Below are positions 28,503-47,592 of a DNA stretch of 64,000 nt, piece by piece (position 1 is the stretch's first letter; each line of letters opens with the position of its first letter). Both the position numbers and the translations under genes were made by a program. Source of the stretch: Agromyces marinus (GTDB lineage Bacteria; Actinomycetota; Actinomycetes; Actinomycetales; Microbacteriaceae); NCBI RefSeq assembly GCF_021442325.1, contig NZ_CP087879.1:3038001-3102000 (forward strand), in the 5' to 3' direction. A model generated the notes under the pieces. The model was not told the DNA's origin. It made no database searches and saw nothing but the letters and a program-made list of their open reading frames with translations.

Positions 28503-29638
28503 ACCGCGAGGTGCGCGCGGGCGACCGCGGCGTCATCGAGCAGGCCCGGCGTCGCGGCGGCGGCCCCGGAGAGATGCGCGCGAAGCGCGGAATCCCGGTC
28601 GAGGCGGCGCAGCACACCGGCGAGTGCGTCGACGTCGCGCGGCGGCACGAGGAGCCCGTTCACGCCGTCCGAGACCCACTCGGCGGGCCCGCCCTCGTCG
28701 GCCGCGACGACCACCCGCCCGGCGGCGAGGTACTGCAGCACGTTCTGCCCGAGCGGTTCGGGGCGGGTCGAGTACTGGACTCCGACCTCCCAGCCGTCGA
28801 GGAGGCGCGGGACCTCGTCGACGTGCCCGAGCACGTCGACCTGCGACCCCACGCCGAGCCCGTCGGCGCGACGCTGCAGCTCGGCCAGGTACCCCTCGTG
28901 GCCGAACGGCGCACCGCCGGCGAACTGCAGGCGGATGTCGCGACCCGCGAACACGCGCGCGAACGCCTCGAGCAGCTCGGCCTGCCCCTTCCAGGGGTCG
29001 ATGCGCGCGAGCATGCCGATCGTCTTCAGCGGTGTGTCGGCCCGGACGAGCAGGGCGGCGCCGACCGTGAGGCCGGACGCGCTCGGTACGACCTCGGCGA
29101 TCGCCTCCGGCCGGAGGTAGGGCTGCGCGGAGTCGAGCGTCGCGCGCGAGTTCGCGATGACGCCGTCGGCGCGCGGCAGCACCACGCGCGTCATGAGCGC
29201 GTGCCCGGCCCCGCCGAGCGCCTCGGGCTCGACGAGGTCGCGCAGGTGCACGACGAACGGCGTGCGCGAGACTCGCGCGGCGAGCGCGCCGTAGGCGGCC
29301 GCGCGAGCGGTGTTGGCGTCGACGAGATCGGCGGATCGGAAGGCGGCGGAGGTGCGCGTCGCGACGGCCTGCACCGCGAGCCGCACCCCGAAGCCGAGCG
29401 CGGCGAGCGCTCCGCCCGAGCTCGCTCCGGCCGGCTGCCGGATGCCGGCGACCCGCCGTGCCACGCGCGGAGGCACCGCGTCCCACACGTTCGGGCCGGG
29501 CCCGAGCGGCGGCGTCTGCAGCGCCGCCGCCCAGTCGGGCCGAACCTGCAGCATCCGGATGAGCGCGAGCTCGGCGCCGCCCGCGGCATCGGTGTGGTCG
29601 AGGTGCAGCACCCTCAGGCGGCGCTCCTGCCCGATCAC
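28472..29638 (-). CDS. GT4-family glycosyltransferase
   Basis: A 388-residue GT-B fold glycosyltransferase. N-terminal start LRVLHLDHTDAAGGAELAL, acceptor-side Rossmann fold, then TIGMLARIDPWKGQAELLEAF and the nucleotide-sugar segment near EPLGQNVLQYLAAGRVVVAADEGGPAEWV. In most GT4 enzymes this segment has E-x7-E; here the second Glu is not in the usual register. GTG start overlaps the stop of the phosphatase gene (GTGA), so the two are co-translated. Donor and acceptor unknown. Confidence 0.88.
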   Translation of the reverse strand: MIGQERRLRVLHLDHTDAAGGAELALIRMLQVRPDWAAALQTPPLGPGPNVWDAVPPRVARRVAGIRQPAGASSGGALAALGFGVRLAVQAVATRTSAAFRSADLVDANTARAAAYGALAARVSRTPFVVHLRDLVEPEALGGAGHALMTRVVLPRADGVIANSRATLDSAQPYLRPEAIAEVVPSASGLTVGAALLVRADTPLKTIGMLARIDPWKGQAELLEAFARVFAGRDIRLQFAGGAPFGHEGYLAELQRRADGLGVGSQVDVLGHVDEVPRLLDGWEVGVQYSTRPEPLGQNVLQYLAAGRVVVAADEGGPAEWVSDGVNGLLVPPRDVDALAGVLRRLDRDSALRAHLSGAAAATPGLLDDAAVARAHLAVYERVLAARD

Positions 29639-30363
29639 GTTCCGCGCCCGCCGAACCAGCGGCGGCGCCGGCGTTCGGGCTGCGGCGGGCCGCCTCGCGA
29701 AGCTGCGGAGTGGGCGCCGCCGATCCCCTCGAACGAGAACGCGTCGGGATCCGCCACGGTCGCCAGCACGGCGTCGACCTCGCTCGGCGGCAGCCCGAAC
29801 AGGGTCGCCGCGATCGCAGCCAGCGGCGGCACCTCCTCACGGGCCATCGCGCGGTACGCCTCGTCTTCGCGGCCCTGCGGGTCGGTGATGTCGCCGTCAT
29901 CGGTCGCGCCGAGTTCGCGCCGACCGCCGAACGCCGCGACGCGCGCCCGGAGTTCGTCGGCCGACGCCGGCGCCGGCGACGGCCCGAGCCGTCGGGCGAT
30001 CCCGCCGGCCTCGCGGATCGTGAACGTCGAGCGGAGCATCGACGGCACCATGCCGAGCACCGCGTCGCGATGCGCGACATCCGCCGTCAGCACCAGGTCG
30101 GCGGCCCGGATGTCTCGTTCGTCGATCTGCACCGCGCGATGCGCGCGCCCGTCGGCCCCCAGGCGCTCCGCGATCGCGCGCGTGCGGCGGCGCATGGGCT
30201 GGCCCGCGGGCGCCGCGAGGCCGGCGCTCGTGACGACGACGCGCGGCGCGGCATCCGCCGACCGAGCCTGCTCGACCCAGGTGCGCAGGAGCGCGGCCGC
30301 GAGCGCGGACCGGTTGATGTTGCCGGTGCAGACCACGAGCACCCGGAACTCGTCGGAATCCAT
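29635..30363 (-). CDS. Low-molecular-weight protein tyrosine phosphatase
   Basis: A 242-residue Wzb/PtpA-type phosphatase. The active-site loop is Cys12-TGNINR-Ser19 and the general acid is in ITDPQG (Asp161). The C-terminus has about 70 extra residues with a Pro/Arg-rich end. In glycan islands these enzymes dephosphorylate the BY-kinase, which is encoded at 44629. It is the first gene of a two-gene leftward unit. Confidence 0.9.
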   Translation of the reverse strand: MDSDEFRVLVVCTGNINRSALAAALLRTWVEQARSADAAPRVVVTSAGLAAPAGQPMRRRTRAIAERLGADGRAHRAVQIDERDIRAADLVLTADVAHRDAVLGMVPSMLRSTFTIREAGGIARRLGPSPAPASADELRARVAAFGGRRELGATDDGDITDPQGREDEAYRAMAREEVPPLAAIAATLFGLPPSEVDAVLATVADPDAFSFEGIGGAHSAASRGGPPQPERRRRRWFGGRGT

Positions 30364-38206: not shown

Positions 38207-38758
38207 TCAGGGGGTGCCGAAGCTCAGCACGCAATCCTTCTGAGCCTCGGTGAACGCGTCGCAGCTGCTGCCCTGTGCCGGCGGAACTGCGGTGACCGAG
38301 GCGGCCGCGTTCTCCGAACCGCCGGGACCCCCCGTGATCGTGTAGGTGATGAGGAGCGCACCGTTCGAGCTGTTCGGTGCGTTCTCCGTGATGATCGCGA
38401 TGTTGGGGAAGAAGGAGTTCGGCGGAACGTCGAACGAGGAGCCCTGCACCGTGCAGCTGTCGAGCTCGATCACGGTGACCGCACCGAGGCTCTGACCGTC
38501 GAGCGTGGCGGAGGTGATCGTCACGGTGATCTGCACGTTGAACTGGTTCTCGATGCTCGCCGCGAACGCGTAGCCCTTGTACGTGGGGTGCGCGTTGCCG
38601 GGCAGCTTGCAGCCGCCGCCGTCGAGCGTGAGGACGCCGGGGGATGCCGCGTACGCCGGAGTCGAGACGGCGAGCGCCACGACAGGGACGGACCACGCCG
38701 CTGCCTTGGCGACAGTGCGTCGACTGATGCCGGGACGCTGTTCTTCGAGGTCGCTCAT
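38207..38758 (-). CDS. Tat-exported beta-rich protein, function unknown
   Basis: A 183-residue protein with a twin-arginine signal (SRRTVAKAAAWSVPVVALAV, cleaved after AYA near residue 37). The mature part is Thr/Ser/Asn/Gly-rich and looks like a beta-sandwich. It has four cysteines (GGGCKLPG, LDSCTVQG, SSCDAF, KDCVLSF), so two disulfides are likely once folded; Tat export implies folding before export. The ATG at 38758 has a very good AGGAGGG ribosome site. It is beside the HprK/PqqD/nucleotidyltransferase cassette and may be its client; this is inference only. Confidence 0.85.
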   Translation of the reverse strand: MSDLEEQRPGISRRTVAKAAAWSVPVVALAVSTPAYAASPGVLTLDGGGCKLPGNAHPTYKGYAFAASIENQFNVQITVTITSATLDGQSLGAVTVIELDSCTVQGSSFDVPPNSFFPNIAIITENAPNSSNGALLITYTITGGPGGSENAAASVTAVPPAQGSSCDAFTEAQKDCVLSFGTP

Positions 38759-38905: not shown

Positions 38906-40105
38906 TCAGCTTCGGACGAGCAGCTTCGCATCCAACAGGTCGCCCAAGGCCTCGGAGATGACCTCGTCGACGTCGACCTCCGCGGGCGGGGCCGGGAGGT
39001 CCCGCCGGACCGCCGCCTTCAGTTCGGCCTGGTCGAGGCCGTCCGCCGCGAGCCAGAGCGCGGGCCCCACGCCGGCGAGCACCATGAGCCTCCCCGACGC
39101 GAGCACGACGAGTGCGTCGTCGAAGATCATCGCGTCGACGAACGTGCCACGCCAGTACGCGTCCGGACGGTCCTCCGCAGCCGGCCCCTCGTCCTCGTCG
39201 AGCACCTTCCCGGAGCAGTCGCAGCCGCGTTGCGTCAGGCTCGCGACATCCATCACGACCGGCGCGGTCTCATCGCGCGACGCGAGAAGGTCGTCGATGA
39301 GCGTCGGTATCGACGCCGCCTCGGAGTACACGACCCGTCGGACGCCTCCGGTCGAGCGAATCGTCTCGATGAGGGTTCCGAGCGGCCGATCGAGCTCGAA
39401 CAGGAAGCTCGACTGCGCGACGAGTTCCGGCAGGGCGTCGAGCATCGACACCGCTTCGAAGTACGGCTCCGCGACCTCGGGTCGCCGGTCGAGCAGGACG
39501 ATCGCGGCCAGTTCGAGCTCGGCGGGCGGCAGTCCCTTCAGGGCGAACGCGGATGCGGGCTCGGTCGCCTTCACCCCGGACGGGGTGACGATGGAGAGGG
39601 GCTTCGGGTAGGGGAGGACGGAACCGTCGGCACGCAGTGCGAGCGTCTCATCCGTCACGTAGCCGAACACGCGGCCGAGTTCCCGAGCCACCGTGGTCTT
39701 CCCGCGGCCCGAGGGCCCGACGAAACCGACCACCCTGCCGTCGTCGAGCGCCACCGCGGCCGCGTGCAGCATGAGCGCCTCCCCACGCAGCCCTCGAATC
39801 GCCTCGAGCGTGACCTGCGAGGTGATCCTCTGGGCGAGCGCCTCCGGCGAGTTCGCACTCACCTGCAACGATCCGTCCACCGGATCGGAGTCCGCACGGA
39901 CGCCCGCCGTGAGCACGCGGGTCGGCTCCCCGTCGGCGTCGTGCGCGACGTCGGCCCAGTGCGCGGTGATCGCTGCCTGATCGGCGGCGCTCAACGAGTC
40001 ATCCAGCTCGATGCGGACGTGGCTCGTCAGGGCGAGCACGTCGAACGCGGTAGGCATGATCGGAAGCCTATCCGCTGATTCCACGACCATGCCCGACCCG
40101 CTCAT
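38906..40105 (-). CDS. HprK-like kinase with C-terminal PqqD-like domain
   Basis: A 399-residue protein. The middle (about residues 105-215) is an HPr-kinase-type P-loop domain: HAAAVALDDGRVVGFVG, Walker A GPSGRGKTT (130-138), then TDETLALR (151-158) as the acidic motif. Residues about 317-398 look like a PqqD/RRE winged helix and line up with the separate PqqD-like protein encoded next to it. A CDC pair lies at 295-297. Such kinases phosphorylate small peptides or proteins in lasso-peptide and related clusters. The ATG at 40105 overlaps the PqqD stop; ATG 40057 is an alternative. Confidence 0.85.
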   Translation of the reverse strand: MSGSGMVVESADRLPIMPTAFDVLALTSHVRIELDDSLSAADQAAITAHWADVAHDADGEPTRVLTAGVRADSDPVDGSLQVSANSPEALAQRITSQVTLEAIRGLRGEALMLHAAAVALDDGRVVGFVGPSGRGKTTVARELGRVFGYVTDETLALRADGSVLPYPKPLSIVTPSGVKATEPASAFALKGLPPAELELAAIVLLDRRPEVAEPYFEAVSMLDALPELVAQSSFLFELDRPLGTLIETIRSTGGVRRVVYSEAASIPTLIDDLLASRDETAPVVMDVASLTQRGCDCSGKVLDEDEGPAAEDRPDAYWRGTFVDAMIFDDALVVLASGRLMVLAGVGPALWLAADGLDQAELKAAVRRDLPAPPAEVDVDEVISEALGDLLDAKLLVRS

Positions 40106-40389
40106 GCCTCGCCAGGGAGTCGCGCATCACCCGACACGAGCAGGCCCAGGGCCACGAGTTCCGCGACGAAGTGCTCGACATCCGCCCGCACCTCGTCGGG
40201 CGCCGTCCCGGTCGCTCCGGCGACCCGGTCGACGATGGTCGCCGGCTGCCCGGTGCAGGCCTGTTTCCAGATCAGCCCGGCGATGCCGTCGAGTACCACG
40301 ATCGGGCCCGAGGGGAGCACCGCCGCGTAGCGGACGCCGTCGTGCACGAGCTGCGACGTCGCCGGGCTCGGTCGATACGCCGAGGTCAT
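40102..40389 (-). CDS. PqqD-like peptide-recognition protein
   Basis: A 95-residue PqqD-family protein (RiPP recognition element fold). It shows the beta-hairpin start SQLVHDGVRYAAVLPSGPIVVLD, GIAGLIWKQ and the late helix DVEHFVAELVALGLLV typical of the family. PqqD proteins hold the leader of a substrate peptide or present it to an enzyme. Overlaps of four bases on both sides show coupling to the nucleotidyltransferase upstream and the kinase downstream. Confidence 0.85.
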   Translation of the reverse strand: MTSAYRPSPATSQLVHDGVRYAAVLPSGPIVVLDGIAGLIWKQACTGQPATIVDRVAGATGTAPDEVRADVEHFVAELVALGLLVSGDARLPGEA

Positions 40390-41264
40390 CGGGCCACCCC
40401 CTGGCGGTGCAGCCGCCTTCGACCGGCCCGAACGGCCTCGCGCGCCGCCACGACCGGGCGCCGCACGAACTCGACCGCGATCTCCCACTTCGTCGGTCGG
40501 CGTCCGAGTCGGTGCGCGAGGTGATCGACGTTGACGAGCGGCGCTCGACCCACGATCCGCAGTCGCGCGCGCAGGCCGCGCGCCGCACGGATCCGCGCCC
40601 ACCACTCGAGCGACCGCGGGCCTCCTTCGGACACGACCTTCCACAGCAGGTACTCGCGCTCCCCGCGGTATCGCTCGAGGTCGCCGGTCGCCGCCGCGAA
40701 GGCGACCTCGGCGTGCAGCCGGGCGACCAGGTCGGTCATCGCGGAGCGCTGCGACGCATCCGCCCCGTCCCAGACGACGGGGAGGTCGCGTCGATGGCCG
40801 CCGGGCGCGCGGGCCGCGTTCAGCACGAGCAGCACCCGCTGCGCCGTGACGCTCGGAACCTCGCACGTGACCCCGGCGATCTCGAGTCGCCCCCGATCCG
40901 CCCAGAACGCGTCGAAGGCCGCCGTCGGCGCTGCCGAGATGCCGGGGAAGCTCCGGTGGACGTCGACGTAGCCCCACTGGTCGTGCAGGTACGTCTGGGC
41001 GTGTCCGAACGGCGAACCGTTCTCGAACGTGCTGTACACAGACCATCCGCTGCGCGTCAGGGCGCGGTCGAGCATCGTCACCTGGTGAGGGCGCACCATC
41101 ACGTCGACGTCGGTGCCGAACGGCCCGGCTCGCAGGGACGGATCGACGGCGGCACCCTTGATGTGCAGGATGTCGGCGCCGACCCGGTCGGCGATGTGCT
41201 GGACGGCCGCATGCCCGAACTGCAGGCGCACCTGAAGCGGCACGCCGACCCGTGATCCGTCCAC
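40386..41264 (-). CDS. NTP_transf_5-family nucleotidyltransferase
   Basis: A 292-residue member of the uncharacterised nucleotidyltransferase family PF14907. HIKG (34-37) and GTDVDVMVRP (50-59) with Asp52-x-Asp54 form the active site; YVDVHRSFPG supplies a third acidic residue. Family members occur in lasso-peptide and EPS clusters. The GTG at 41264 is chosen because GGGGAGG and GGAGGA precede it; the open frame extends far upstream but over other genes. First gene of the cassette. Confidence 0.85.
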   Translation of the reverse strand: MDGSRVGVPLQVRLQFGHAAVQHIADRVGADILHIKGAAVDPSLRAGPFGTDVDVMVRPHQVTMLDRALTRSGWSVYSTFENGSPFGHAQTYLHDQWGYVDVHRSFPGISAAPTAAFDAFWADRGRLEIAGVTCEVPSVTAQRVLLVLNAARAPGGHRRDLPVVWDGADASQRSAMTDLVARLHAEVAFAAATGDLERYRGEREYLLWKVVSEGGPRSLEWWARIRAARGLRARLRIVGRAPLVNVDHLAHRLGRRPTKWEIAVEFVRRPVVAAREAVRAGRRRLHRQGVAR

Positions 41265-42478: not shown

Positions 42479-43384
42479 CTACCCGCGGCCCGAGAGCACG
42501 CCGAAGGCCCCACCGGGGAACCGCGGGAGGTCGGGGAGCACGTCCCTCAGGCGTGCGATCGCGCGCTCGAGGTCGTCGCACGCGCGCTCGACGTTCTGAC
42601 GCCGTGCGATCGATGCGCCCTCGAGAAGTCCGGCGAGTCCCCGACCCGCATCGAACCCCGTGAAGCGGCTCGAGCCCGGCGAGATCACGGATTCGTAGTC
42701 GTGGAACTTGAACGGCCCGCCGCTGAGCGGCGGCTCCAGCATCGTCCACGTCGCCGGGATGCCGTACGCATCGGCCGTCACGAGTCCGTGCAGCGACGTC
42801 GTGACCACCGCCTCGGCCGACGCGATCTCGCGGACGACCCGCGCCGCGGGCTGGTGCACGTTCACGACGTGCACGCGGAGATCCACCGAGTCGGCCATCG
42901 ACATGAACGGCTCGTGGGAGCGGTGGTGACCGTGCGGCACGAGCGCGACATCCCACCGGGCCTTCGGCCGTTCGCGGCGCCGCGCCACGAGGATTCCGGG
43001 GTCGCCGAGCGCGACATCCTCGGGCGCCCCGATCAGCTCTCTCGTGAGGTGGCCTCGCACGGCGAGCACCTCGGCGTGCGGGAGGGGATGCGGGCGCCCG
43101 TACATGAGCCCGCTGCCCCAGATCGCGCCGGCGAAGTCCTCGGGCAGGAACTCGAGGATGCTCCCGACGCCGGCGAGCCGGGCCTTCGCGGCGACGCGGT
43201 GCACGGGCGCGATGCCGTACTCCGGCAGCAGCCAGGGCGTCAGGTCGTCGCCGAAGTTCGGGTGCCCGTCCCACCAGGTCGCGGGAACGACCACGCCTCC
43301 GCGCCACATCGCCGGTCGCGTCGCCGCTGCCGCGAGGCGGCGCACCTGGCGCATCCGTCGCCGCCGTGGGGTCGAGTAGGTCAT
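42479..43384 (-). CDS. Polysaccharide pyruvyl transferase-family protein 1
   Basis: A 301-residue PF04230 protein, which adds ketal pyruvate to a sugar using phosphoenolpyruvate. GHPNFGDDLTPWLLPEYG, AIWGSGLMYG, ALGDPGILV and TTSLHGLVTADAYGIP are the family blocks. It overlaps the stop of the GT4 gene before it (ATGA). It is one of three such genes in the island. Confidence 0.88.
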   Translation of the reverse strand: MTYSTPRRRRMRQVRRLAAAATRPAMWRGGVVVPATWWDGHPNFGDDLTPWLLPEYGIAPVHRVAAKARLAGVGSILEFLPEDFAGAIWGSGLMYGRPHPLPHAEVLAVRGHLTRELIGAPEDVALGDPGILVARRRERPKARWDVALVPHGHHRSHEPFMSMADSVDLRVHVVNVHQPAARVVREIASAEAVVTTSLHGLVTADAYGIPATWTMLEPPLSGGPFKFHDYESVISPGSSRFTGFDAGRGLAGLLEGASIARRQNVERACDDLERAIARLRDVLPDLPRFPGGAFGVLSGRG

Positions 43385-44628: not shown

Positions 44629-46155
44629 TCAACCGCGCTGGTCCGACGGGGGCTCCGTGACGAAGTCGTCGGAGGCGTCGGAAGCGTCGGCCGGCGGAGA
44701 GGCAGCCTTGCGCGAGGACTTCGGCGCGTCGGCGCGAGCACCGTCGGGCGCTGCCACGGAAGCCTTCGACGTGTAGTCGTGGCGGTACTCGTACGAGTAG
44801 GTCGCGGCATCCGCGCCTCGGAGCGGGGACTTGTTCAGCACGATGCCGAGTGCGCGCCCGCGTGCCTTCTTCAGCGTGTCGAGTGCCTTCTCGAGGAGGT
44901 CGTACGTCGTCTTGCCGAGCGTCACGACGACGAGGGCTCCATCGGCCTGATGGGTCAGCACCGCACCGTCCGTCACGGGCAGGAGGGGCGGGGCGTCGAT
45001 GATGACGGTCGCGTGCTTGGTCAGATCCGCCAGGAGCGTGTGCATGCGCTCGGAACCGAGCACCTCGCTCGGGTTCGGGGGAACGCTGCCTGCCGTGAGG
45101 ACGAGCAGGTTGTTGGACTTCGCGGTGCGCTGGAGCACCTCGGAGAGCGCCGCGCGACCGGCGAGCACATCGCTCAGGCCCGCCCCGCCCGGCAGCCCCA
45201 TCGTCTTGGCGACCATCGACCGACGCAGGTCGCCGTCGACGAGGACGACCGTGGTTCCCGCGGCCGCGAGCGTCAGCGCGAGATTGCACGCGATGGTCGA
45301 CTTGCCGTCGCCCGGCAACGGGCTCGTGACGACGATCGTCTTCGGCGGGTGGTCAACGTCCATGAACTGCAGGTTCGTCCGCAGCGCCCGCAGCGCCTCG
45401 GAGACCGCGAACGTGCCGTTCTTGCCGGTGTTGTTGGCGGCCGAGGCGTCGACCAGGCGGTTCTCGGCGTCCATGCTCGGAACGAACGGGATCGTGCCGA
45501 CGACCGCGACGCCCGTCTTCTGCTCGGTGTCCTCGGCGTTCCGGATGCGGCGGTCGGCCGCAGTCCGGATCATGGCGAACGCGACGCCGAAGCCGAAGCC
45601 GAGCACGCCGCCGACGATCAGGGCGGTCTGCACGTCGGGGAACGCCGGAGATGTCGGCACCGAGGCGGAGGCGCGCGAGATCACCTCGACGGGCGCCGCG
45701 CCGGTCGCGCTGCTCTCGGCCTCGACTCCCTCGACCACCGTGGCCAACGACCGGAGCCAGGCCTCGGCGAGCGCCTTCGCGTCTTCGGGCGTCGATGCCT
45801 CGGCGCTGGCGCTGAGGATGACCGTGCCGTCGGCGTTCGTGACCTCGACGCGCTCGACGAGTTGCTCCGGTGTCGTGTCGAGGTCGAGGTCGTCGATCAC
45901 GCCCTGCGCGACATCCGTCCACCCGGCGATGATCAGGTAGGACGGCACGCGGGAGCGGGCGACGCTGTCGCCGAGCGACATGCTCCCCACATCGGCGCCC
46001 TGCCCGGTCGACTGCACGAGCCCGCTCGCCGATGCGACGTAGACCGGGGTCTGCAGCAGGGTCCAGCCGTAGCCGGCACCGATGCCGACCAGCGTCATCA
46101 GGACGATCGCGATCCAGTGCCGACGCAGTCCGCGGAGGTAGTCGCGCAGTTCCAA
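44629..46155 (-). CDS. Polysaccharide co-polymerase/tyrosine autokinase (Wzz plus BY-kinase)
   Basis: A 508-residue inner-membrane protein that controls chain length. Wzz-type domain with two membrane segments (about 14-34 and 176-196), then the kinase domain: Walker A PGDGKST (281-287), Walker A' VVLVDGDLRR (303-312), Walker B VIIDAPP (384-390). A tyrosine cluster follows (Tyr453, 455, 457, 461), then a disordered acidic tail. The start is TTG with GGAGGAG five bases upstream. The phosphatase at 29635 is its likely partner. Confidence 0.94.
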   Translation of the reverse strand: MELRDYLRGLRRHWIAIVLMTLVGIGAGYGWTLLQTPVYVASASGLVQSTGQGADVGSMSLGDSVARSRVPSYLIIAGWTDVAQGVIDDLDLDTTPEQLVERVEVTNADGTVILSASAEASTPEDAKALAEAWLRSLATVVEGVEAESSATGAAPVEVISRASASVPTSPAFPDVQTALIVGGVLGFGFGVAFAMIRTAADRRIRNAEDTEQKTGVAVVGTIPFVPSMDAENRLVDASAANNTGKNGTFAVSEALRALRTNLQFMDVDHPPKTIVVTSPLPGDGKSTIACNLALTLAAAGTTVVLVDGDLRRSMVAKTMGLPGGAGLSDVLAGRAALSEVLQRTAKSNNLLVLTAGSVPPNPSEVLGSERMHTLLADLTKHATVIIDAPPLLPVTDGAVLTHQADGALVVVTLGKTTYDLLEKALDTLKKARGRALGIVLNKSPLRGADAATYSYEYRHDYTSKASVAAPDGARADAPKSSRKAASPPADASDASDDFVTEPPSDQRG

Positions 46156-46215: not shown

Positions 46216-47592
46216 TCAATGGTATGTCAAGCGACTTCCGGCCGGTCCGATGGCCGCGAGGTCGGCGTCGGCGTCGTGCCCGGGGCCGGCACGCTGCTCG
46301 CGCGCCATCGCACCGAGGCAGATGCCGGCGATGACGAACGGGATCGACACCTGCGCGGCCACCCAGAACAGGTCGAACTGCGCCTGCACGATCCGGCTCA
46401 GCACGACCGCGACCGCCAAGGTGCCGAATCGCGGGTCGACGTGCCAGAGCACGAGCAGGATGCCGATCCACATCACGATGAACGCCGCGAGGCCGAGGAC
46501 GCCCGCGCTCGCCAGTACCTCGAGCTCGCCCTGCGGCGGTTGGTAGCCCAGGTTCCCGGGCTCGCGCCAATAGCGCAGGCCGTGCCCGAAGATCGGCGAC
46601 TCGCGCCAGTAGTGGTAGACCTCGCGGAACCAGTCGAGTCGCTGGAACACCGAGTTGTGCTGGTTCTGCGACTGGACCTGCTCGACCACCATCGTGACGA
46701 TCAGCCAGGCGGCCGGAATGAGGAGGAGCAGGACGAGGATGCGCGAGCGCCTCGACGTGCTGCGCCGGATGACCGCGATCATGATGGCCGCCATGAGGCC
46801 GATCAGCGCCTGCCGAGACTGCGACGCGACCACGCCGGCGACGAGCAGCCAGAACGCGAGCCGGGACCATCCCTTCGTCCACCCGACCCAATCGGGGTTC
46901 AGGTACGCGACGATCGCCGCGAACGCGAACACCGTGCCGACGAAGTTCTTGTGCATCGGGAACGGCCAGGTGGGCGAGGCCGGCCCGAAGTCGCCGATCG
47001 CGTAGCCGGCGACGGCGTCGACGAGGGTGATCACGGCGATCGCGCACGCGGTGAACACGAGCACCGAGAGCGCCGTCCGCGCGTAGCCGGCAGCCCCGAG
47101 CGCCCACCCGACGATCAACGCACCCGACACGAGCAACCAGGCGTGGAACCATTCGAACGTGTTGGCGAGGTACGGGTTGACGATGACGGTGAGCAGCGTC
47201 GCGAACTGGTACAGCAGGTTCAGCCAGAGCAGTTGCCGGAGCGGCCTGCTGTACGGTCGCTGCCCCAGGAGCAGTGCCGTACCGAAGGCGGCTGCGAGTG
47301 CGGCGTCGGAGACCGAGAGGTCGGTGCCGCCGATCCCGATCCGCTGCGGGATCATCAGACCGGGCATGGCGAAGAGCGCGATCGCGAGTGGTTTCGATGC
47401 GGTCAGCGAAGCGGCGATCACGAATGCCGCGATCACGATGGCGAGCATCGCGCCGCCCACCGCGCCCCGGTCGAGCAGGAAGTACGTCGCCGTGACCGCC
47501 GCGAAGGCGTAGAGGAACCAACGCCACGCACCGGACCACCATTCGACGGTCCGGAGACGCCGGATCACCCGGCGCTCGCTCGTCGAACTCAT
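46216..47592 (-). CDS. O-antigen ligase/Wzy-type polymerase
   Basis: A 458-residue membrane protein with about 11-12 helices. A long loop (near residues 310-365) carries DWFREVYHYWRESPIFGHGL, the Wzy_C/RfaL signature. It would polymerise or ligate repeat units outside the membrane. It lies 60 bases before the BY-kinase on the same strand, a common gene pair. Confidence 0.9.
   Translation of the reverse strand: MSSTSERRVIRRLRTVEWWSGAWRWFLYAFAAVTATYFLLDRGAVGGAMLAIVIAAFVIAASLTASKPLAIALFAMPGLMIPQRIGIGGTDLSVSDAALAAAFGTALLLGQRPYSRPLRQLLWLNLLYQFATLLTVIVNPYLANTFEWFHAWLLVSGALIVGWALGAAGYARTALSVLVFTACAIAVITLVDAVAGYAIGDFGPASPTWPFPMHKNFVGTVFAFAAIVAYLNPDWVGWTKGWSRLAFWLLVAGVVASQSRQALIGLMAAIMIAVIRRSTSRRSRILVLLLLIPAAWLIVTMVVEQVQSQNQHNSVFQRLDWFREVYHYWRESPIFGHGLRYWREPGNLGYQPPQGELEVLASAGVLGLAAFIVMWIGILLVLWHVDPRFGTLAVAVVLSRIVQAQFDLFWVAAQVSIPFVIAGICLGAMAREQRAGPGHDADADLAAIGPAGSRLTYH

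Follow-up and report, generated by a model that had tools for sequence, protein, structure and literature searches.

The window considered here, a 64,000-nucleotide stretch of the 3.2 Mb genome of Agromyces marinus (NZ_CP087879.1, positions 3,038,001 to 3,102,000), holds three leftward genes that encode a nucleotidyltransferase resembling NTP_transf_5, a discrete PqqD-like protein, i.e. a RiPP recognition element (RRE; RiPP, ribosomally synthesized and post-translationally modified peptide), and a predicted HprK-fold serine kinase with an RRE of its own; the next gene encodes a protein with a twin-arginine translocation (Tat) signal (Table 1). The three genes had been described in a first-pass annotation of this DNA as a coupled cassette, and in the window the ATGA overlaps at both junctions, the 95-residue PqqD-like protein (PF05402 cut-off, 23.4 bits) and the aspartate pair of the nucleotidyltransferase, joined by a third aspartate, are all as described. 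As a general property the tight cassette was overstated, since elsewhere the genes lie further apart, are fused, or fall outside the stretch. From 228 kinase relatives found in a scan of species genomes, the best 80 (79 labelled Actinomycetota) were kept as named loci with at most 10 kb on each side of the kinase, so that neighbour counts, scored at >20 bits with small custom profiles, are lower bounds. Within these stretches the order nucleotidyltransferase-PqqD-kinase is seen only in Agromyces luteolus (L062), whose kinase is the closest named one among the 80 (78% identity to the window kinase) and where the Tat gene follows as in the window; kinase, nucleotidyltransferase and PqqD are consecutive in L125. 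Such close packing is a local form of a wider system.

Table 1. Features of the window (positions counted from its first nucleotide)
Feature	Position	Strand	Characteristics
Nucleotidyltransferase (NTP_transf_5-like, LppN/PsmN-like)	40386..41264	-	292 aa, GTG start, D52, D54, D101
Discrete PqqD/RRE protein	40102..40389	-	95 aa, PF05402 37 bits, ATGA overlap with both neighbours
HprK-fold Ser kinase (predicted) with C-terminal RRE	38906..40105	-	399 aa, P-loop; H114, K136, D152
C-terminal PqqD/RRE-like domain of the kinase	38906..39157	-	residues ~317-399 plus stop
Tat-exported protein, proposed substrate	38207..38758	-	183 aa, predicted beta-rich mature part; gene next after kinase
Tat signal up to Ser39	38642..38758	-	RR at 13-14, W22xxP25, Ser39 = W+17
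Probable low-molecular-weight protein-tyrosine phosphatase	29635..30363	-	N-terminal VCTGNINRS; groups with phosphatase/kinase cluster
Polysaccharide pyruvyl transferase	42479..43384	-	PF04230
Wzz/BY-kinase (polysaccharide tyrosine autokinase)	44629..46155	-	TIGR01007 159.7 bits
Wzy/O-antigen ligase-like polymerase	46216..47592	-	PF04932

The assignment of the third gene to an HprK-like P-loop kinase holds, but its second, PqqD/RRE-like domain had been overlooked. The predicted structure of the kinase (pLDDT 87.5) resembles phosphoenolpyruvate (PEP) carboxykinases most closely, followed by HPr kinases (3tqf, 1knx, 1jb1), so that the structural similarity to HprK on which the first-pass annotation had made its proposal depend is present in the model. 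The PEP carboxykinase/HPr kinase superfamily is that expected of HprK-like kinases. Residues H114, K136 and D152 are invariant in all 14 aligned kinases, and the fold match and this His-Lys-Asp signature together mark the protein as an HprK/PEPCK-fold kinase. At the fourth position of the His-Lys-Asp-Asp signature reported for lasso HprK-like Ser kinases (PMC9266682), the second Asp is replaced by Glu (E153) in our own mapping. The HprK-related kinase A family (TIGR04352, HprK_rel_A) is matched at E<=0.01 by 13 of the 14 kinases (best 9.8e-8), whereas the 19.3 bits of the window kinase fall short of the 200-bit cut-off, and an ABC-transporter model matches it with a better E-value; it is therefore a relative and not a member of that family.

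In the model, kinase residues 317-399 are arranged as strand-strand-strand-helix-helix-helix, and the kinase also matches the lasso-peptide RRE TbiB1 (5v1v), whose structure was determined together with its leader; the match spans 87 columns (TMt 0.67, E 7.8e-3) and would fall on these residues. PF05402 is detected at E<=0.01 in 6 of the 14 kinases, the window kinase not among them, and the kinase C-termini of genomes G093 and G073 exceed the cut-off of the family in the genome scan. At 15 of the 80 loci (L074, L079, L086, L089-L092, L094, L095, L097, L100, L102, L106, L113, L115) the kinase is followed by a further RRE within one open reading frame (ORF), giving kinase-RRE-RRE; L074 is the G060 gene, a 527-residue protein with two RRE-like stretches. 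Three Demequina loci (L127, L134, L140) carry a low-molecular-weight protein-tyrosine phosphatase (LMW-PTP) fused to the HprK-like kinase in a single ORF, with the C-terminal part of the kinase matched in a separate following ORF, as in L188.

A profile of nine discrete PqqD proteins matches solved RREs, namely TbiB1 (2.1e-12), PbaB1 (9x90), LppB (9x8z) and TfuB1, and this likeness to leader-binding RREs, together with the PF05402 score, assigns the window protein to the PqqD/RRE group. All nine keep the Phe by which the binding cleft is split (corresponding by alignment, and by the LppB contacts, to F74 of LppB). In the RRE of the kinase the corresponding position is, in our reading, mostly Leu, which makes its mode of binding less sure. 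The PqqD protein had appeared to be a near-orphan when searched as a single sequence (2 of 150 genomes), a view overturned by the Pfam profile PF05402. The window nucleotidyltransferase scores 23.9 bits against NTP_transf_5 (cut-off 31.2), a weak single-sequence match; of the eleven sequences in its alignment, nine reach E<=0.01 against this family (best 1.5e-17). Nucleotidyltransferase and RRE share a single ORF in G019, where PF05402 supports the fusion, and in G045 (L046), where it was recognized by eye. The nearest studied enzyme, PsmN, has been linked to the addition of hexose onto phosphoserine (PMC9266682), and in the study on linear polyphosphorylated peptides (LPP) the nucleotidyltransferase had no effect in the test host (PMC13381572).

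The first-pass annotation had noted the absence of any visible short precursor. By contrast, a substrate candidate can be seen in the Tat protein encoded after the kinase. Its signal is one of a dispersed family that bears WxxP, the motif bound by RREs in leaders, and that occurs together with the kinase. Clustering of the genes around the kinases places the family of this protein in 28 loci, the window included, and 18 of the 80 loci have a Tat gene on the strand of the kinase within ~370 bases. Among 18 unrelated Microbacteriaceae loci no such Tat gene was found, a total of 58.6 kb in which ~3 would be expected at the rate of the kinase loci and which is too short to matter. The predicted fold of the window protein (pLDDT 72.5) is beta-rich with generic matches only (TM by query <= ~0.4), and what the family has in common is the signal, with the consensus RRxxxKGAAW[SA]xP[VA][IVL]AxAVAxPxAxAS, in which M1, the RR, A, W, P and the second P are invariant in 29/29 profile rows. 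A 50-residue profile built from proteins in the kinase loci, which itself favours W and P, retrieved 36 ORFs at 34 dispersed sites (33 in kinase genomes, one in G085), all with RR..WxxP, with I, V, L, F or A at W+5 in 36/36, and with Ser at W+17 in 35 and Thr in one. When the profile was cut at W+12, so that it did not cover W+17, 86 of the 93 proteins from outside the loci of the profile had Ser at W+17, as did 75/81 after removal of duplicates, of L074 (the same G060 gene as one profile row) and of four proteins matching profile rows over the core, while at W+18 no residue exceeded 17/93. Other signal-like N-termini from the same loci, a heuristic control whose pattern restricts the +1 residue, have Ser in 11/69, and the eight commonest residues listed for the 23 RR-bearing control N-termini contain no Ser. 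In the window protein the cleavage site would in our reading be A-Y-A/A-S (cleavage at the slash), placing Ser at +2 of the mature chain. Lasso RREs bind [Y/W]xxPx[L/V/I/F/A], of which the YxxP of the LPP leaders is a close likeness, and in LppA the phosphorylated Ser (+3) follows the motif Tyr (-16) at a distance of 18 residues (PMC13381572).

The reading that we favour, with a probability of about 0.58, is that the genes encode an RRE-guided modification system for exported proteins, in which Tat signals would double as RiPP-like leaders. That the RREs instead act as Tat signal chaperones, in the manner of redox-enzyme maturation proteins, while the kinase regulates export or polysaccharide synthesis and the targets stay covalently unchanged, is distinctly unlikely: contact between RRE and signal would precede export, three of the 80 loci, all from Herbiconiux, have TatA/TatC genes close to the kinase, and HprK relatives can be regulatory, yet both the fixed Ser at W+17 (86/93) and the nucleotidyltransferase-RRE fusion would be left unexplained.

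Individual loci add to the picture of the signal family. L188 (G263:C3:358000-376500) has seven ORFs with WxxP Tat signals on one strand downstream of nucleotidyltransferase, bacterial tyrosine kinase (BY-kinase) and PTP-kinase genes. In G096, a choice-of-anchor G surface protein (L058:6424-7971, minus strand) beside the nucleotidyltransferase gene bears the Tat-signal variant RRNVLIGAGWAAP, and a paralogue in the source genome (L159, G000:C1:149800-151330) has the mature motif CKLPG...KGYAF in common with the window Tat protein. In the Herbiconiux loci L101, L104 and L118 the TatA and TatC genes share the locus with the kinase and WxxP Tat proteins, perhaps as a dedicated translocase.

The distribution of the signal follows that of the kinase. 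In a sample of 150 genomes of the family, kinase homologues counted at E<1e-25 only (95 genomes had matches, mostly short P-loop ones) are present in 12, the nucleotidyltransferase in the same 12 plus a weak match in G114, and PF05402 (E<=0.01) in 11 of these 12, G070 being without. The Tat-signal profile (E<1e-5) is matched in 13 genomes, the 12 kinase genomes and G085, and nine others have weak matches only (1e-4 to 1e-2). Eight of these nine were re-examined and seven matched again, six through Tat- or lipoprotein-like signals lacking WxxP and the seventh (G110) through a chance WSVP, apparently inside an enzyme. Dispersed copies number 43 in G073, 27 in G093 and 3 in the source genome. Among 218 genomes at the order level, 39 have the kinase (E<=1e-12), 38 the signal (E<=1e-4), 34 both and 175 neither (Fisher p 5e-30, ancestry ignored). 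Species of one genus are split in the same manner, with both present in the source genome and neither in five others of genus g1, and both in four and neither in five genomes of g85. Of 336 genomes sampled at the phylum level, three contain a close kinase (the source genome and two that the order sample shares), and each of these has the signal; it is absent from seven whose HprK-like kinases are all distant (E 1e-18 to 1e-13), and two genomes (G678, G500) have the signal alone. On the kinase tree, presence of a Tat gene beside the kinase is clustered, yet 15 changes are needed, so that the kinases with a Tat gene form no single clade.

The surroundings of the three genes in the window form an exopolysaccharide locus, which includes several GT4 glycosyltransferases. 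Near the 80 kinases, a nucleotidyltransferase is found at 54, a free or fused PqqD match at 50, a BY-kinase at 68, an LMW-PTP at 44, a signal peptidase I (SPase I) at 35 and a sugar transferase at 27. The SPase gene directly follows the kinase in 12 loci, rows of Tat, kinase and SPase genes occur in L083, L110, L129 and L132, and the two SPases scanned are of the bacterial type (TIGR02227). The search over actinobacterial genomes with tabulation of neighbours, which the first-pass annotation had called for, supports a conserved set in exopolysaccharide loci of Micrococcales that consists of HprK-fold kinase, RRE and nucleotidyltransferase, with no lasso B2 protease detected. A contig labelled Stenotrophomonas maltophilia (L094) carries actinobacterial-type kinase, RRE, nucleotidyltransferase and BY-kinase genes and is probably a Microbacterium contaminant, since its kinase groups with Microbacterium. 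Five of the nine kinases that have neither a BY-kinase nor a Tat gene nearby (stricter pattern) lie on one branch. A Microbacterium clade (L117, L119, L120, L122, L137) has no BY-kinase or nucleotidyltransferase nearby, and four of the five also have no WxxP Tat gene in the stretch; these kinases perhaps have another function.

The same context underlay the earlier proposal of a free-standing phosphorylation and nucleotidylation module, which would act on exopolysaccharide enzymes or regulators, the Tat proteins being surface proteins of the locus. The neighbour counts for BY-kinase, LMW-PTP and sugar transferase, the LMW-PTP-kinase fusions of Demequina, and the Rathayibacter-type kinases, which retain the exopolysaccharide context with no WxxP Tat gene nearby, all fit such a module; however, the Rathayibacter genomes G045 and G116 of the family sample still carry 20 and 15 dispersed signals, respectively, and from genus to genus the signal goes with the kinase, so that we consider this version improbable.

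The tailoring of the lasso peptides paeninodin and pseudomycoidin (PadeK/ThcoK, PsmK, PsmN) likewise combines an HprK-like Ser kinase, RREs with WxxP leaders and a nucleotidyltransferase (PMC9266682). It differs from the set described here in that here no B2 protease scores above cut-off, the fourth catalytic residue is Glu, and the proposed substrates are exported proteins and not lasso peptides. The lasso protease was indeed missing, as first annotated: PF13471 has no match in the source genome, and the ten window genes scanned contain no lasso cyclase or protease family. An Asn-synthetase-like macrolactam cyclase was likewise absent from these ten genes, and no genome-wide search for a lasso cyclase was made. 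PF13471 was searched in 49 of the 50 kinase genomes (12 from the family and 37 from the order sample, G171 left out) and gave no match above cut-off (0/49), with weak sub-threshold partial matches in six, inside ORFs of >=600 aa; a trio found only beside a lasso cyclase and protease would, according to the first-pass annotation, have pointed to a broken or misread cluster. In known clusters the lasso tailoring genes include such a kinase, an RRE and a nucleotidyltransferase (PMC9266682, PMC13381572), but with no B2 protease above cut-off in these 49 genomes and with catalytic residues and domains conserved across genera a decayed lasso-peptide cluster is so improbable that it was rejected.

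The closest known system is the LPP pathway of Bacillota (LppA/K/B/S/D/N; Popov et al., 2026, PMC13381572). The two have in common an HprK-like kinase, a discrete RRE, an NTP transferase, capsular or exopolysaccharide loci, often a leader peptidase of the signal-peptidase type, precursors with a conserved N-terminus and a variable rest, and an aromatic-xxP followed by Ser near the cleavage site, the phospho-Ser of LPP lying 18 residues and the conserved Ser here 17 residues on (PMC13381572). LPP clusters have no cyclase of their own, and none is among the ten window genes scanned. The combination of HprK-like kinase, discrete RRE and NTP transferase without a lasso B2 protease is found here as well, the cyclase having been checked in the window genes and not genome-wide. 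However, LPP are restricted to Bacillota according to the authors (PMC13381572), while the present system is found in Actinomycetota; Tat signals take the place of dedicated leaders, the exported proteins are many and dispersed, the motif is WxxP and not YxxP, the kinase has its own RRE or RREs, and bacterial-type SPase I is encoded at some loci. The LPP precursor motif YxxPxVLxHQxIxFETxxS is not seen in the signals (WxxPx[IVL]...AxAS; short ORFs lay outside the motif scan), neither of the two SPases scanned is of the SipW-like, archaeal type of LppS, and no LppD-like (MsbA-like) exporter is among the ten window genes scanned, no dedicated search having been made. Because the YxxP...FETxxS leader and the SipW-like peptidase were looked for and not found, the system is not filed as LPP. 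New relative to LPP are its occurrence in Actinomycetota, the Tat signals as leaders, the many dispersed protein targets and the fusion of an RRE to the kinase.

An actinobacterial LPP or RiPP pathway whose real precursor is a short unseen peptide, with the Tat proteins as unmodified neighbours, is an unlikely alternative, albeit the strongest of those considered. In its favour, the enzymes are those of LPP, where precursors measure 35-200 aa (PMC13381572), small genes are easily missed (gene calls started at 35 codons), and the loci hold other small gene families, e.g. of 56 aa (9 loci), ~160 aa (17 loci) and ~182 aa (12 loci); against it stands a signal family that is dispersed far beyond the locus, combines an RRE motif with a Ser at a fixed distance, and follows the kinase from species to species. 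In the full-text literature searched, with subscription journals and preprints mostly outside it, no paper was found that visibly links PqqD/RRE proteins or HprK-like kinases with Tat signals. Sorting of the PEP-CTERM/exosortase type also has dispersed targets with one terminal signal and its processing genes in an exopolysaccharide locus. The system described here differs from it in the N-terminal Tat signal and in having kinase, RRE and nucleotidyltransferase in place of an exosortase.

Several observations weigh against modification guided by the Tat signal. Ser at +1 or +2 may in part reflect the preference of signal peptidase, and WxxP lies within the hydrophobic part of the signal, which is also needed for Tat. 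A WxxP Tat gene is not seen within the stretch at 27 of the 80 kinase loci (34 by the stricter pattern), and SPase I, found at 35/80 loci, was not found in the examined part of the window. PF05402 is matched at E<=0.01 in 38/150 family genomes, of which 27 have no kinase, so that PqqD alone is no marker of the system. In the order sample, for which the nine best kinase candidates per genome were scored, five of the 39 kinase genomes (G171, G254, G268, G309, G335) have no signal, and in the loci of G254 and G335 the RR..WxxP pattern gives only apparent out-of-frame noise. Conversely, the signal occurs without the kinase in G160, G222, G236 and G249 of the order sample and in G085 of the family sample, and near-complete scoring of candidates in these five genomes gave only weak, P-loop-sized kinase matches; here the targets either have lost their modifying enzyme or are served by a divergent one. 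Finally, the agreement between kinase and signal is partly circular, because the profile was built from kinase-locus proteins and, of the 12 kinase genomes, at least five (G000, G060, G070, G073, G093) contributed rows to it; the dispersed copies and the kinase-negative genomes are the more independent evidence.

The gene set, the fusions, the folds, the catalytic residues, the motif, the conservation of Ser and the co-occurrence were computed here, and from them we infer the following course for the favoured RRE-guided modification. Ahead of export, the WxxPx[IVL] of the Tat signal would be gripped by the discrete PqqD protein, by the RRE domain of the kinase or by both, and the HprK-fold kinase, tethered via its own RRE, would (poly)phosphorylate the Ser at W+17 adjoining the signal-peptidase site. 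The nucleotidyltransferase would then add a sugar-phosphate or a nucleotide to the phosphate on Ser, comparable to PsmN with hexose, and Tat would export the marked protein, which would be cleaved by signal peptidase, encoded beside the kinase at some loci. As a guess from the locus context, the mark may bind or anchor the protein to the exopolysaccharide that this locus produces. In its widest form, which we put forward tentatively and at somewhat less than even odds, this would be a proteome-wide marking, in which the RRE-fused kinase reads WxxP in the Tat signals and, together with the nucleotidyltransferase, modifies exported proteins, up to dozens of them, at the N-terminal Ser with a group joined through phosphate, by which they become attached to exopolysaccharide.

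If true, a single N-terminal sequence would serve both as Tat export signal and as RiPP leader, so that modification and export would be specified within the same 40 residues, and the chemistry of peptide antibiotics would extend to ordinary secreted proteins. The system would name a substrate class for the HprK-like kinases and NTP_transf_5 enzymes of exopolysaccharide loci, propose the marking or tethering of surface proteins to polysaccharide, a role left open for LPP and paeninodin, and provide a simple genome-wide predictor of targets for actinobacteria. Proteome-wide marking, for its part, would amount to a modification code encoded in signal peptides and to a new route of protein-glycan attachment.

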